Part shown: positions 7,374 through 12,191 of the stretch, one piece after another
Position numbering within the stretch: the stretch's first letter is position 1
Layout of the letters: each line of letters starts with the position of its first letter
Assembly (NCBI GenBank): GCA_002839095.1
Contig: PGXL01000014.1
Coordinates: 1 to 44,503 of the forward strand
Reading direction: 5' to 3'
Origin: Tenericutes bacterium HGW-Tenericutes-2
Lineage (GTDB): Bacteria > Bacillota_I > Bacilli_A > Acholeplasmatales > Acholeplasmataceae
DNA length: 44,503 nt
Notes under the pieces: generated by a model
The model's database searches: none
Told to the model about the DNA's origin: nothing
Seen by the model: only the letters and a program-made list of their open reading frames with translations
Made by a program: the position numbers and the translations under genes

Positions 7374-7713
7374 GGGGATGTTCTGGATTCGTCACGGCAT
7401 GGACTAAAGTATAAGCATGTCATGGTCGCTCATGTAAAAAGGCCGAGGTTATAATAACCGGAAACCAATCTTTACAATTCGCTGCCTAAGAAAAGGTGCG
7501 AGCCAAATTTGAATTTACTTACGGTTCTAATGCGGCCCAACTTTAGTAAGTTATACTTATTGAAATTCCTATATCAATAAAAGAACTCTATAGGGTAGTA
7601 TTATAGTCATTTGTTCATTTCGATTATAGTATGAATTCATAAATGGAATAAACATGTAGAAAGTACTTTAGAAAGTGTTTTGCACAGGGGTTCAAATCCC
7701 CTCATCTCCACCA
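7374..7713 (+). ncRNA. ssrA: Transfer-messenger RNA (tmRNA), one-piece
   Basis: The RNA rescues stalled ribosomes and tags the unfinished protein for proteolysis, with SmpB. The 5' end GGGGATG (7374-7380) pairs over seven positions with CATCTCC (7703-7709), followed by discriminator A and an encoded CCA (7711-7713). The T arm is AGGGG, loop TTCAAAT, CCCCT (7686-7702). The 5' segment GGATGTTCTGGATTCG is the conserved tmRNA start. A reading frame ending TTA CAA TTC GCT GCC TAA (7472-7489) gives a tag ending SLQFAA; the resume codon is probably GGA at 7460 (GNQSLQFAA), but it could lie slightly upstream. Length is 340 nt. The 3' end from 7690 onward is duplicated at 11708, see the island entry. 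Confidence 0.95.
7690..7707. repeat. Left direct repeat (attL candidate) in ssrA
   Basis: GTTCAAATCCCCTCATCT, part of the tmRNA T arm and acceptor strand, recurs exactly at 11708-11725. Similarity continues, with substitutions, through the terminator, where a 26-bp block (7725-7750) is identical to 11742-11767. Confidence 0.75.
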
Positions 7714-7726
7714 ATTTTTTATAGAT

Positions 7727-7752
7727 AAAACGGCTTAATTAAGCCGTTTTTT
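7727..7752 (+). terminator. Terminator of ssrA
   Basis: A 24-bp perfect palindrome (7727-7750, core CGGCTTAATTAAGCCG) ends in TTTTTT. It starts 13 bases after the CCA end. Confidence 0.9.
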
Positions 7753-7861
7753 GTTTATTTTTTCTCTTTTATTTAACATTGAGTATAAAGGAATAATTTA
7801 CATTTAGAAAAAGAACAATACAACTTACATCAAAATTCGGTTCTCAGGACTTAATAACTCA

Positions 7862-8161
7862 TTACTCTACGCCGTATTTTTTTAAAACAAAACTCTGTGT
7901 ACGGATCATTAAAAAACCAACAAAAACGAGCATTGTATAAAAAACTATTGCATGAAATAACTCATTATCAGGATAACTTAAGAATATATTATATATTGTT
8001 CCTAGTAAACCTAAATAAATAATTGTAGGAATCAAAGTGTAAAACCCTGCTTCAATAAATTTCAAATGCTTGATGTATTTAAACATAACTAAAAAGCATA
8101 TAATGAAAAATCCTAAGAATGGTATCAAAAGAATTAAATATTGTTTTTTTACAGTACTCAT
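7862..8161 (-). CDS. Small integral membrane protein, unknown (island)
   Basis: A 99-residue protein with about three membrane helices (roughly residues 7-28, 38-60, 70-88) and a basic C-terminus. I do not recognise a family. The ribosome binding site AGGGGG, five to six bases before the ATG, is strong, which supports real expression. It is the island gene nearest ssrA and is separated from the next minus-strand gene by 282 bp, so it is probably transcribed on its own. Confidence 0.65.
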   Translation of the reverse strand: MSTVKKQYLILLIPFLGFFIICFLVMFKYIKHLKFIEAGFYTLIPTIIYLGLLGTIYNIFLSYPDNELFHAIVFYTMLVFVGFLMIRTQSFVLKKYGVE

Positions 8162-8443
8162 ACTAAGCCCCCTAAAGATAAATTATAGACTGGGTAAAAA
8201 TAACATCGACTAAATCTCTTTAGTCCATTGCAAAGTCATCTTCAAATAGTTTATATTCATGTAATCACAAATAAGTTATCTATTCATCAATTCTAACACT
8301 CAATTTTAGCTCTTAATGAAAAAAGTGAAATGATTTGAATATTTAGGACACCTAGACCTTTCAGTTTTCTATGCATATGGTATCATAACCCACTGTTTAA
8401 ATTCCATACCAATCCAAAAATAACTTTTGCTGAATAAGTCTAC
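8162..8443. other. Non-coding spacer inside the island
   Basis: No gene is seen here. It holds a 7-bp hairpin, GACTAAA (8208-8214) and TTTAGTC (8219-8225), with no T-run on either strand, so it does not look like a terminator. Confidence 0.5.
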
Positions 8444-8995
8444 TTACCCACTATTTTCTTCAATAATATTGTTTAATGTGAAGAGGATTGAGTACATAAG
8501 TATCTGATTGTTTGGAAATCCACCTACATCAGAACCACTGTAATATACATCATGTTGCGGTGTAAATGTTAGTGTAATTAAATCAGAATCTATGTCTCGA
8601 GGATCCATCAAATCATTTAGCAATGAACTATTTGATTTTTTATTATTTGCAATTAATATATGGAAAAATCTATTTCTATAGAGAAAATTTATCTGTTCAA
8701 GTGTTCCAAATTCGTCATTTTTGTATTTATTCATATCAATTATCAAAAAATTATATGGGTTGTTTGAGCTACCTTGAATTTGGTCAATTGATGTTATATA
8801 TATTGGAGTATAGTCTTCATTAAAATCAAAATCATCACTGAAAATATACACATTAGCATGTTTTTCTTCAATTGAATTTATTATATCGAAATAGTCCATC
8901 GGTATTCCTAAAGGTGGATTCTTTTCAGGAGGAAAAAAGAATATGAAGTATAAAGCTAAAAGAATCAAAAAAAATAGCACAATAATTCTCTTCAT
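8444..8995 (-). CDS. Membrane-anchored protein of unknown function (island)
   Basis: The 183-residue protein has one N-terminal hydrophobic helix (residues 4-21) directly after MKR, with no lipobox or clear cleavage site, so it is most likely anchored with the rest outside. The remainder is acidic and alternates short beta-like segments (NVYIFSDDF, NFLIIDMNKY, FFHILIANNK) with loops, as in a small alpha/beta domain. I do not recognise the family. AGGGGG lies about ten bases before the ATG. The next gene upstream is 166 bp away, so it may have its own promoter. Confidence 0.65.
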   Translation of the reverse strand: MKRIIVLFFLILLALYFIFFFPPEKNPPLGIPMDYFDIINSIEEKHANVYIFSDDFDFNEDYTPIYITSIDQIQGSSNNPYNFLIIDMNKYKNDEFGTLEQINFLYRNRFFHILIANNKKSNSSLLNDLMDPRDIDSDLITLTFTPQHDVYYSGSDVGGFPNNQILMYSILFTLNNIIEENSG

Positions 8996-9161
8996 TTTTA
9001 TATATCCCCCTAAATAATGTGATTTTTTATAATAGCTCTAATTTGGCTTGATTGTATAACTTTCTAGCTACTTTGTCAATATTGGACTAGGTGTTTTTTA
9101 TTAGATAGTAATAACCGTTCATATTCTTACAAATCTTCAAAATCCTCAATGCTTCTCAAAC

Positions 9162-10196
9162 TTATATATTGCCTAGTTGTGAACCAACATCCATCCAATC
9201 AGATTCTATAATAATTGTTTCAGTAATGAAATCATAAATAATAATCTTTACCTGTTGTGATTTGATTAGTGATCCAAATGTTCTAACTTGCTTACAAAGC
9301 AATTCTCTTTCACTAATAACCATCCCATTACTATATTCCATATCTAAATCAATTTGATTGATGACAGTGAACTCCTGGTTCAATAAATTGATTTTCTTAT
9401 TGTAAACTTGATCTTCTATAATAAAGTTATCATACATTTTTATTGACCCGTAATCAGCAGCTAAAAAGTAAGATAATTCTATAGATTCTGAATCGACCCA
9501 GAGTCCTTTAGTTTCACTAGTAAAATTACCTTCTAAAAATAATAAAGTTTCTTCATTGATTACCATGTAATTACCCATATTGGAATTTACTGTTGTAATT
9601 ATCTCATTGTCTAAGTCATATATATAGTCAAAGTTTTCCACATCAATATTCGGATAATTTAGATTGATGTATAATTTGTTATTTTCATAGTAAACATCTA
9701 TATAACTATAGTAGTTAACTGGACTGATAGATATATCACCAATTAACTCTCCAGATGAAATGTCATATGTCAGGAATCTCATTGGATTGCTGCTAAATGT
9801 GTAAAACACAATGACATTTTCATCATAGTAACAAACATTATAGAATCCTTCATCAGCAGTTGAATCGATAGAAGTGTATTCCAGTGTATCAAGGTTAAAT
9901 AATTGATATGATGAAACACTTCTTGCTTCGTAATCACTTAACCTGAGTAGAATTTGATTTCCTATTAGACCAATTGTATAGTATCCACTCAATGTTTCAA
10001 CTATATATAACTCATTATCCTTAAAATAACCAATAGATATATTTTCAGTTTTTTGATTATATTCTGTAAAATAATACTTACTGTTATAATTTCCAATGAA
10101 AAAGATTTTTTTGCTGCTTTGATCTACTTCAATCCCACAAGCTGTTAACAAAAACATACTTAACAAAAAAACAAATATCAATATTATTTTTTTCAT
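9162..10196 (-). CDS. Lipoprotein of unknown function (island)
   Basis: The 344-residue protein starts MKKIILIFVFLLSMFLLTAC; the lipobox LTAC predicts lipidation of Cys20 and attachment to the outer membrane face. The rest is rich in Tyr, Asn and Ile with repeated short beta strands (such as YFKDNELYIVETL and YYENNKLYINLNY), which resembles beta-propeller lipoproteins, though I cannot assign a family. I start at ATG 10196 because it overlaps the stop of the upstream gene as ATGA; an in-frame GTG four codons earlier lies inside that gene. It is the last gene of a three-gene overlapping set with two small membrane proteins. Confidence 0.75.
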   Translation of the reverse strand: MKKIILIFVFLLSMFLLTACGIEVDQSSKKIFFIGNYNSKYYFTEYNQKTENISIGYFKDNELYIVETLSGYYTIGLIGNQILLRLSDYEARSVSSYQLFNLDTLEYTSIDSTADEGFYNVCYYDENVIVFYTFSSNPMRFLTYDISSGELIGDISISPVNYYSYIDVYYENNKLYINLNYPNIDVENFDYIYDLDNEIITTVNSNMGNYMVINEETLLFLEGNFTSETKGLWVDSESIELSYFLAADYGSIKMYDNFIIEDQVYNKKINLLNQEFTVINQIDLDMEYSNGMVISERELLCKQVRTFGSLIKSQQVKIIIYDFITETIIIESDWMDVGSQLGNI

Positions 10197-10462
10197 AGTA
10201 CAATCCACACCATCAATCCGTATAATAATACAATTTGAAAAACACCAAATGTAGCTAGGTTAATAACAAGACTCCAAAAGGATTTTGATTCATTATTTTC
10301 AAGTTCTCGGTTCGATATTTGATTTATAACGACAAGAAAGACTACAAAGAGAATAAAGTCAACGAATAAAACGACTGTTGAAATGATTTGAGGTAGAAAA
10401 AAAGTAATACCTAAGATAATGTAGAACAAAATTGCCGGTATAAGTCTCTTCATTAATTTCAT
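10193..10462 (-). CDS. Small membrane protein, unknown (island operon)
   Basis: An 89-residue protein with about three membrane helices (roughly 8-25, 27-47, 65-87) and a short polar segment, SNRELENNESKS, between the second and third. Family not recognised. Its start lies one base after the stop of the upstream 98-residue gene, and the site GGAGGGG is formed by that gene's last codons; its own stop overlaps the lipoprotein start. This tight coupling suggests the three products are made in fixed ratio and may form a complex. Confidence 0.7.
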   Translation of the reverse strand: MKLMKRLIPAILFYIILGITFFLPQIISTVVLFVDFILFVVFLVVINQISNRELENNESKSFWSLVINLATFGVFQIVLLYGLMVWIVL

Positions 10463-10463
10463 C

Positions 10464-10760
10464 CTAAACCCCTCCTGGTAGATACTGAGTTAAAGAACTA
10501 AGAAAAACAAAGATAGCAAGACAGAAACACCCTATTATGTAGATAATATTCACTAGATTCACATTCTTATAAAACATCACATCTAGGCATAATCTCTTTA
10601 GTTTATTGATAATAGCAAAATTAAAAATCAAGATTAGAAAACACGAAAAAAATATAAATAGATTTAACAGAACACTAGACCTAAAATACACTATGAACAA
10701 TGGTATGTACATAATTGGTAAAACATAAAAGTAAAGCATAAAAAGTTTTTCTTTTTTCAT
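10464..10760 (-). CDS. Small membrane protein, unknown (first gene of island operon)
   Basis: A 98-residue protein with two to three N-terminal helices (about 7-28, 30-50) and one near the C-terminus (about 70-90), with a basic loop (NKLKRLCLDV) between. No family recognised. AGAGGGGAG lies just before the ATG. It begins an overlapping three-gene set and is preceded by a leader of about 190 nt that contains a strong hairpin. Confidence 0.7.
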   Translation of the reverse strand: MKKEKLFMLYFYVLPIMYIPLFIVYFRSSVLLNLFIFFSCFLILIFNFAIINKLKRLCLDVMFYKNVNLVNIIYIIGCFCLAIFVFLSSLTQYLPGGV

Positions 10761-10837
10761 AGTCTCCCCTCTTCGCTAAAAACCCTTCAATCACTACTAT
10801 TGATTATTAATTACTAAATTTTTGTGCTTCGAAACAT

Positions 10838-10862
10838 AAGATTCGTGTGATTAACGAATCTT
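10838..10862 (-). promoter_or_regulatory. Hairpin in the leader of the island operon
   Basis: AAGATTCGT (10838-10846) and ACGAATCTT (10854-10862) form a perfect 9-bp stem with a 7-nt loop, which can be extended on the minus strand past a bulge. No T-run follows, so an RNA-structural or stabilising role is more likely than termination. It lies about 80 nt before the first start codon. Confidence 0.5.
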
Positions 10863-10959
10863 TCGCAATCATGATAGTCATATATGTCATATATTCAGCG
10901 TTTTTAAACTAAATAGAACTATATGAAAACCCCCGTCACAACGTTTAGTATTTATTATT

Positions 10960-10965
10960 ATTATA
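10960..10965 (-). promoter_or_regulatory. Candidate -10 box of the island operon
   Basis: TATAAT on the minus strand is preceded at 18 bp by TTACCT (3/6 match). Transcription would start near 10953, giving a leader of about 190 nt. The -35 is weak. Confidence 0.4.
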
Positions 10966-11102
10966 TCTTATTTTAGTAACTATAGGTAAAGAATCCTGTT
11001 TCTATTAATAGTCTTACACTCAAATTCCGTCAATTTGATAGTAAGAATAATCAATTCCCTCAATTAAAGAAGTAATTTATGGGTATAACAATCATAGCTA
11101 AT

Positions 11103-11184
11103 AAAAAAAGTGTATCTTTACACTCTAGAAACAGTCGTCATCACCTATAAGACGCAGCAACTTGGGACGAACAAAACTGTTTCT
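11103..11184 (-). ncRNA. Candidate small structured RNA with terminator (island)
   Basis: On the minus strand, AGAAACAGT (11184-11176) and ACTGTTTCT (11135-11127) close a 58-nt hairpin with a possible inner GACG/CGTC stem. Two bases later comes a second stem AGTGTA/TACACT (11124-11109) followed by six or more T, a good terminator. No reading frame leads into it, so it may be an independent RNA or the end of a non-coding transcript. No promoter box was identified. Confidence 0.4.
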
Positions 11185-11350
11185 AACATTATTAATGCCA
11201 TTCTTACTTTAGATATTTTTTTTGAAGTGTTTTAGAAAGAAAAAATCATCCTTTGATAATCATGCTGCTTACAGCTAATTCTTTTATATTAATATTAAAT
11301 AAAACAATAATCATGCTAAAATATAATCAAATTACAAGGGAGATAAATCT

Positions 11351-11683
11351 GTGTTGAATAGATTACTAAAAGACGATAGAAAAATTAATATGATAATTCT
11401 TATTACCGGTATTCTCAACTACCCATTAGGTTTATGGGGAGTAAAAATTCCAGGTAATGTTTTAAATGAATTGGGTCTAGATGATATTATGCTTCTTTCT
11501 ATCTTGTTTGCTTGGATTATATCCTTAGTTGCAACAATAGTATGTCTAACTCGCATTCAAAGAAATTTAAGAAGCAAGGCACTTTGGATTGGTTTTATAT
11601 TGAATTTTATTTATCTAGTTACACCTGGCATCATTTTAATTTGGGCATTTTTGCGACTTATTATCTTTGGCATTGGTCATTAG
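11351..11683 (+). CDS. Small integral membrane protein, unknown (island)
   Basis: A 110-residue protein with about three membrane helices (roughly 17-35, 45-67, 77-105) after a charged N-terminus (LLKDDRKINM). It starts with GTG at 11351, eight bases after GGGAG; no ATG start is better placed. It is the only plus-strand gene in the island and ends 24 bp before the degenerate ssrA repeat. Family not recognised. Confidence 0.65.
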   Translation: MLNRLLKDDRKINMIILITGILNYPLGLWGVKIPGNVLNELGLDDIMLLSILFAWIISLVATIVCLTRIQRNLRSKALWIGFILNFIYLVTPGIILIWAFLRLIIFGIGH

Positions 11684-11707
11684 TTATTAGCATATCTATA
11701 ACCTTCT

Positions 11708-11725
11708 GTTCAAATCCCCTCATCT
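11708..11725. repeat. Right direct repeat (attR candidate), degenerate ssrA 3' end
   Basis: An exact 18-bp copy of 7690-7707. It begins at the last base of the T-stem 5' strand, so no T arm can form, and the positions matching the mature 3' end read TTAGCCA instead of CCACCA, so it is not functional RNA. Confidence 0.75.
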
Positions 11726-11743
11726 TAGCCAATATCTATAAAT

Positions 11744-11767
11744 AAAACGGCTTAATTAAGCCGTTTT
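11744..11767 (+). terminator. Duplicate of the ssrA terminator
   Basis: The same 24-bp palindrome as behind ssrA, followed here by ATTGTT rather than a long T-run. It may now end the transcript of the 110-residue gene and that of osmC from the other strand. Confidence 0.7.
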
Positions 11768-11792
11768 ATTGTTATGCTTATTCAATTTCACT

Positions 11793-12191
11793 CTATTTTG
11801 TTTCAAATAATACAACCAATTCAATATTAGCTACCTTTGATACAGTCTCATGAATTGAACAAAACTTCGCACCTAATTCTGCAGCCTTATTAAGCTTTGC
11901 TTCATCGGATCCATTATATACAATCATTTCAATCTTTACATAATCAAGAGTTGCTATTGCATCATCTCTTTTGTTACCTGAAACTTCGATTGCTACATCA
12001 GTAAATGTCAATCTCATCTTATTTGCAACACTTAAAAAAGTTGCATAAAAACAAGAAGCAATTGAACCAAATAATAAATGGTATGGCTTCATTCCTTGAT
12101 CTTGGTTGCCTAACTTAATTGTGCCGGTTGGTGAAGTCATCTCACCAACAAAATCTTTATCAAATGTTACTTTTACAACGTCTGCTTTCAT
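11793..12191 (-). CDS. OsmC/Ohr family protein
   Basis: The 132-residue protein has the OsmC fold pattern: an N-terminal beta sheet, KPYHLLFGSIASCFYATF with the first cysteine (about residue 47), and KFCSIHETVSK with the second (about 110). In the family the two cysteines reduce organic hydroperoxides. The length is usual for OsmC. AAAGGAGA lies nine bases before the ATG. A 15-bp palindrome lies between the promoter -10 and the gene and may bind a redox regulator. Whether it belongs to the Ohr, OsmC or YhfA branch cannot be settled by eye. Confidence 0.82.
   Translation of the reverse strand: MKADVVKVTFDKDFVGEMTSPTGTIKLGNQDQGMKPYHLLFGSIASCFYATFLSVANKMRLTFTDVAIEVSGNKRDDAIATLDYVKIEMIVYNGSDEAKLNKAAELGAKFCSIHETVSKVANIELVVLFETK

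Follow-up and report, generated by a model that had tools for sequence, protein, structure and literature searches.

The window analyzed here, 44,503 nt long, is contig 39 of an assembly that comprises 52 contigs and 2.30 Mb; its upstream proteins have homologues in metagenome genomes of the Acholeplasmataceae and Tenericutes. It carries an apparently intact tmRNA gene, ssrA, followed by an intrinsic terminator, a 4.0-kb interval with six open reading frames (o1 to o5 on the minus strand, o6 on the plus strand), a partial copy of the ssrA 3' end together with a second terminator, and the chromosomal gene osmC (Table 1).

Table 1. Features of the region between ssrA and osmC, in window coordinates
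Feature	Position	Strand	Basis
ssrA (tmRNA), apparently intact, putatively restored; holds the attL-like core	7374..7713	+	ARAGORN; Rfam RF00023, 138 bits
attL-like copy covering T arm and acceptor, GTTCAAATCCCCTCATCTCCACCA	7690..7713	+	sequence comparison
Proximal intrinsic terminator	7725..7757	+	stem-loop folding; identical in G019
o1, 99 aa, hydrophobic and on inspection TM-like, without family match	7862..8161	-	ORF, family searches
o2, 183 aa, N-terminal hydrophobic segment	8444..8995	-	ORF, homologue search
o3, 348-aa lipoprotein (lipobox LTAC by inspection)	9162..10208	-	homologue search, structure model
o4, 89 aa, small hydrophobic, travels with o3	10193..10462	-	ORF, comparison
o5, 98 aa, small hydrophobic, travels with o3-o4	10464..10760	-	ORF, comparison
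o6, 110 aa, hydrophobic	11351..11683	+	ORF, homologue search
attR-like degenerate ssrA 3' copy, GTTCAAATCCCCTCATCTTAGCCA	11708..11731	+	genome search, shuffle test
Distal terminator, palindromic	11742..11770	+	stem-loop folding
osmC, chromosomal flank outside the putative island	11793..12191	-	family match, relatives

The partial copy of ssrA spans 11708-11775 and begins in the T arm. The sequence-only reading of this DNA had pointed to an 18-bp recurrence of the T arm and acceptor, to similarity continuing through the terminator, and to a second copy that starts at the T arm and has a mutated mature 3' end, and all three hold. The 18 bp, GTTCAAATCCCCTCATCT, are identical at 7690-7707 and 11708-11725 and lie in direct orientation; the acceptor end changes from CTCCACCA to CTTAGCCA in the downstream copy (three substitutions); and a 26-bp block, ATAAAACGGCTTAATTAAGCCGTTTT, is identical between 7725-7750 and 11742-11767. 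The end point of 11768 given for the copy was right in taking in the terminator but slightly short, since similarity runs a few bases further and is gone by about 11775. When the whole genome was searched with ssrA plus its terminator, the 11708 copy was returned at E = 1.7e-15 and no further ssrA-end copy was found; the other two matches were both palindromic terminators on the opposite strand. The self-copy of the tail scored 36, against a maximum of 26 among 30 shuffles of the interval. An intact tmRNA gene accompanied, on the correct side and in direct orientation, by a displaced fragment of itself is the arrangement by which a tDNA-integrated island is recognized, and the window shows it.

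Both stem-loops are much more stable than shuffled sequences (z = -5.1 and -6.3). The distal terminator is a 13-pair palindrome, with a terminator-like stem also on the osmC side, and because it is palindromic it can also serve the convergent osmC gene. Genome G019 matches the window over 87 bp (7714-7800), proximal terminator included, and diverges beyond about 7800. Since these 87 bp are shared, they could be native flank rather than the end of an element; the two genomes would then have in common either an element end or a native 87-bp segment, the left boundary in the latter case lying nearer 7800.

The interval itself is unusually AT-rich. Its GC content is 27.6%; elsewhere in the genome, 213 overlapping windows of 4 kb average 33.2 +/- 1.5% (sd), and none is as low. 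Searches of o1 to o6 against Pfam, PHROGs, NCBIfam and PADLOC gave no significant match beyond the lipoprotein signal, only weak hits at chance level, and found no genes for integration or transfer, or of ICE/IME type, in the interval; PHROGs likewise gave no viral gene. Neither an integrase nor a recognizable remnant of one was detected inside it with Pfam, PHROGs and a remnant search, and no transposase ORF or transposase family was found there. The seven Phage_integrase matches in the genome all lie on other contigs. The structure model of o3 is beta-rich but of low confidence (pLDDT 55). Among genus relatives the only o3 homologue (65%) is on the 7.4-kb contig G004:C146, where o3-o4-o5 have their one relative as a 1.6-kb stretch, 72% identical; that contig carries no tRNA gene and no ssrA. 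The o6 protein has no homologue in the 19 genus relatives. No homologues of o2 or o3 were found in viral contigs, and an ssrA-end search of viral contigs yielded 85 hits, too unspecific to interpret. The relatives of o2 lie at other loci than those of o3-o5, which makes the interval a mosaic and not one intact ancestral element.

Comparison with related genomes places this interval in a locus that changes from genome to genome. Next upstream of ssrA is an HAD hydrolase gene in all 14 genus genomes with enough upstream sequence, some of which have a GFO/IDH/MocA gene between the two. On the other side, the first gene downstream of ssrA differs in every genus genome compared. The osmC gene follows ssrA at 1.1 kb in G002, 1.2 kb in G015, 3.3 kb in G014 and 4.1 kb in the window, and the MFS transporter gene that comes next past osmC in the window recurs in G003, G006, G014 and G016. 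Since both flanks of the interval are conserved, it is a variable slot, replaced or absent in relatives. The sequence-only reading had named as evidence against itself a gene content between ssrA and osmC that is the same in every relative. This is decisively not so: in all three other genomes with ssrA and osmC on one contig (G002, G015 and G014) these genes are entirely different from those of the window. It had also proposed that relatives might show an empty site or an integrase at this position. The integrase exists, in a genome of the same order (G031, below); an exact join of ssrA-terminator to osmC was not found among 20 genus genomes, G002 having the terminator, one gene and then osmC. 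The G016 assembly is interrupted precisely at the CCA of the tmRNA, as it might be if ssrA were followed by different sequences within that population, although other causes are possible. In G015 an rsmH-like (16S rRNA methyltransferase) gene lies between ssrA and osmC (L063:6049-7083), and an rsmH-like gene is also found near osmC in G012. In G004:C13 (L054) ssrA is followed, after some 100 bp that hold no usual-type terminator, by one ORF about 3,100 codons long.

Degenerate copies of the ssrA end are also present downstream of ssrA in G012, at 3.1 kb, and in G040, at 7.7 kb. The insert in G012 includes an IS3-type transposase ORF between ssrA and the tail copy, and the ssrA-adjacent inserts of both G012 and G014 carry IS material, with IS-like ends judged by eye. 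Those of G012 and G016 begin with a common segment of 163-167 bp, 91-95% identical between copies, that includes a terminator-like stem of its own; by analogy, this segment may parallel the proximal terminator of the window as a putative element-borne part. Elsewhere in G012, contig C32 (L072:520-727; L060) has an inverted extra ssrA 3' end with about 190 bp of flank, which adjoins the rsmH-like gene near osmC. This contig begins with GGGTGCTAAAATT-type repeats, as does G017:C23 (L073).

The integrase-bearing form of the site is found in G031, a member of another family of the same order, in an array at L298:3742-11479 with ssrA on the minus strand. There, ssrA is followed by a 6.3-kb element, an ssrA-end copy (ACTCCCCTCATCTCCACCA), a 1.2-kb unit and a second ssrA-end copy, after which comes a AAACGGCTTA-type terminator; terminators of this type directly follow ssrA in several genus relatives of the window. 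The 6.3-kb element encodes an AbiH protein, a tyrosine integrase (domains Phage_integrase, Arm-DNA-bind_4 and SAM_3), an HTH-S24 repressor and an HTH protein, whereas the 1.2-kb unit has one membrane-protein ORF and no integrase. In this array the native tail and terminator of G031 were plainly pushed downstream by the integrase-bearing element and the second unit, and the position of the 1.2-kb unit beside that element looks like accretion. By analogy, the array shows the likely integration machinery for the window's site. Within the genus of the window no integrase linked to ssrA turned up, nor did a G031-type integrase in the window's own genome; G031-like integrases of G082 and G002 were rejected as ssrA-linked because no ssrA end lies beside them. 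With its AbiH gene, of the abortive-infection family, the 6.3-kb element is also a candidate small satellite-like element.

A block of genes without convincing family matches, set between a tmRNA gene and a worn copy of its tail, is the usual footprint of inserted mobile DNA, and the T arm is a typical integrase subsite. We consider it likely that the interval represents a site-specific genomic island, CIME-like and decayed, which has no integrase and extends from the ssrA T arm (about 7690-7707) as far as 11707. This agrees with the sequence-only reading of an old island now without a visible integrase, which gains support from the ssrA-end repeats, the hotspot and the G031 form. Several lines of evidence argue for it: the tail copy, the only one in the genome, begins in the T arm and is found on the downstream side with the same orientation as ssrA; the interval is low in GC and stands between conserved upstream genes and an osmC/MFS far flank, with ever-different genes directly downstream; G031 has an integrase-bearing element and ssrA-end copies at the same site; degenerate copies occur also in G012 and G040; the inserts of G012 and G016 share an end with a terminator of its own; and two relatives have an o2 homologue next to the 3' end of a tRNA-Ser gene (below). 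The case is weakened by an interval that is mosaic and has no integrase, by the 87 bp shared with G019, which could be native flank, by the lack of a clean empty site, and by the placement of G031 in another family while the window's own genus has no ssrA-linked integrase. Under this model a tyrosine recombinase would have integrated a circular element into the ssrA 3' end, with the crossover within the T-arm block. The element's own copy of the tmRNA tail would have restored ssrA and brought the proximal terminator with it, and the native tail and its terminator, the present distal one, would have been pushed downstream to 11708-11770. The integrase may have been lost later, or the unit brought in by the integrase of another element, so that what now lies between the attL-like and the attR-like site is lineage-specific cargo. 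The displaced acceptor end would then have drifted, while the palindromic terminator persisted, presumably kept intact because it also ends osmC.

Other origins have to be weighed against this island. Incoming DNA with an ssrA tail might have entered a variable locus by homologous or illegitimate recombination, through about 65 bp of homology or IS activity and no site-specific recombinase. Homology that covers both tail and terminator would suit such an event, as would the mosaic cargo and the IS material in the inserts of G012 and G014; yet the homology has its edge in the T arm, where integrases typically act, comparable ssrA-end copies flank an integrase-bearing element in G031, and the window's interval yielded no transposase, so that we regard this route as improbable. 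The main alternative put forward earlier was a segmental duplication, in which the tail of ssrA would have been copied along with its terminator, with insertion or divergence between the copies later on. It would account for a copy in which the gene tail is accompanied by the terminator. However, a tandem duplication would also copy DNA of the interval, none of which is duplicated at either edge; moreover, the interval has a deviating GC content, and no relative has it at this position. This origin is disfavored to the point of being very unlikely. There is next to no chance that a terminator or small RNA arose independently at the place of the second copy and matches the 18 bp by coincidence: the palindrome is a plausible osmC terminator, but the ordered match (E = 1.7e-15) and a score of 36 against a shuffle maximum of 26 refute coincidence.

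Several known systems bear on the island thus proposed. In the Islander signature, a tDNA-integrated island has a restored tDNA and a displaced fragment (PMC4383910). The window island resembles these in its ssrA target, same-orientation 3' fragment downstream, T-stem subsite and length above 2 kb; it differs in its mutated acceptor end, in homology extending through the terminator and in having no integrase, so that Islander's integrase filter would reject it. The ssrA-GIs of Dehalococcoides come closest in their setting: they share the hotspot downstream of ssrA, the ssrA 3' direct repeats, the low GC and the strain-specific cargo, and the 15 of 31 that lack a module for integration have been put forward as cis-mobilizable elements (PMC3146451). 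Their insertion was inferred in the T loop, with serine recombinases (DsiB) and rdhA cargo (PMC3146451), whereas the window's cargo is small membrane proteins and lipoproteins and the sole integrase seen at the site, that of G031, is a tyrosine enzyme with Arm-DNA-bind_4; because the Dehalococcoides islands use serine recombinases, the match is one of situation, not of enzyme. Like a cis-mobilizable element (CIME) as defined in PMC5704250, the window island has att-like sites at both ends and no integration or transfer genes, unlike it in that three substitutions in the attR-like copy may have inactivated that site; judged on sequence, it is CIME-like, a candidate for membership. Acholeplasma virus L2, from the same bacterial family, integrates at tRNA genes (PMC7466169) and is thus a precedent for tDNA targeting in this family, with a tRNA-type target; target and element differ, and PHROGs gave no viral gene in the window's interval.

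The proposed element is of a known and ordinary kind, the decayed genomic island, here at a strong ssrA insertion hotspot in relatives of Acholeplasma. A text search of open papers found no description of an ssrA insertion hotspot in Acholeplasmataceae, and a literature search combining Acholeplasma, tmRNA and integrase returned no relevant paper. A single order now offers, for direct comparison, an element with an integrase, a unit without one and a decayed island. Moreover, islands can be bounded by a gene tail plus terminator, and island finders that depend on an integrase would miss them.

A second tDNA shares one cargo gene with the window. G001 (80%) and G011 (71%) have homologues of o2, and in both genomes the homologue follows the same tRNA-Ser(CGA) gene at a distance of about 1 kb. 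A 57-bp terminator segment directly follows this tRNA gene in G001; in G011 it lies about 1.9 kb downstream, beyond o2. The same cargo gene thus stands beside two tDNA 3' ends, ssrA and tRNA-Ser, in three genomes that have the gene alone in common, and this distribution fits cargo travelling with tDNA-targeting elements, as far as three genomes go. One could speculate, with a low expectation of being right, that ssrA and some tRNA 3' ends in Acholeplasmataceae are shared docking sites for very small cargo units (1-4 kb) that lack an integrase, can each carry in a terminator and are moved in trans by the integrases of other elements; such a cassette-like economy would place o2 at both ssrA and tRNA-Ser. 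The upstream flank of tRNA-Ser(CGA) is common to all 16 genus genomes with sequence there, the downstream flank is of several unrelated types, and the genus has its second variable slot on the 3' side of this gene (L328:6383-7848, L329:8164-9977).
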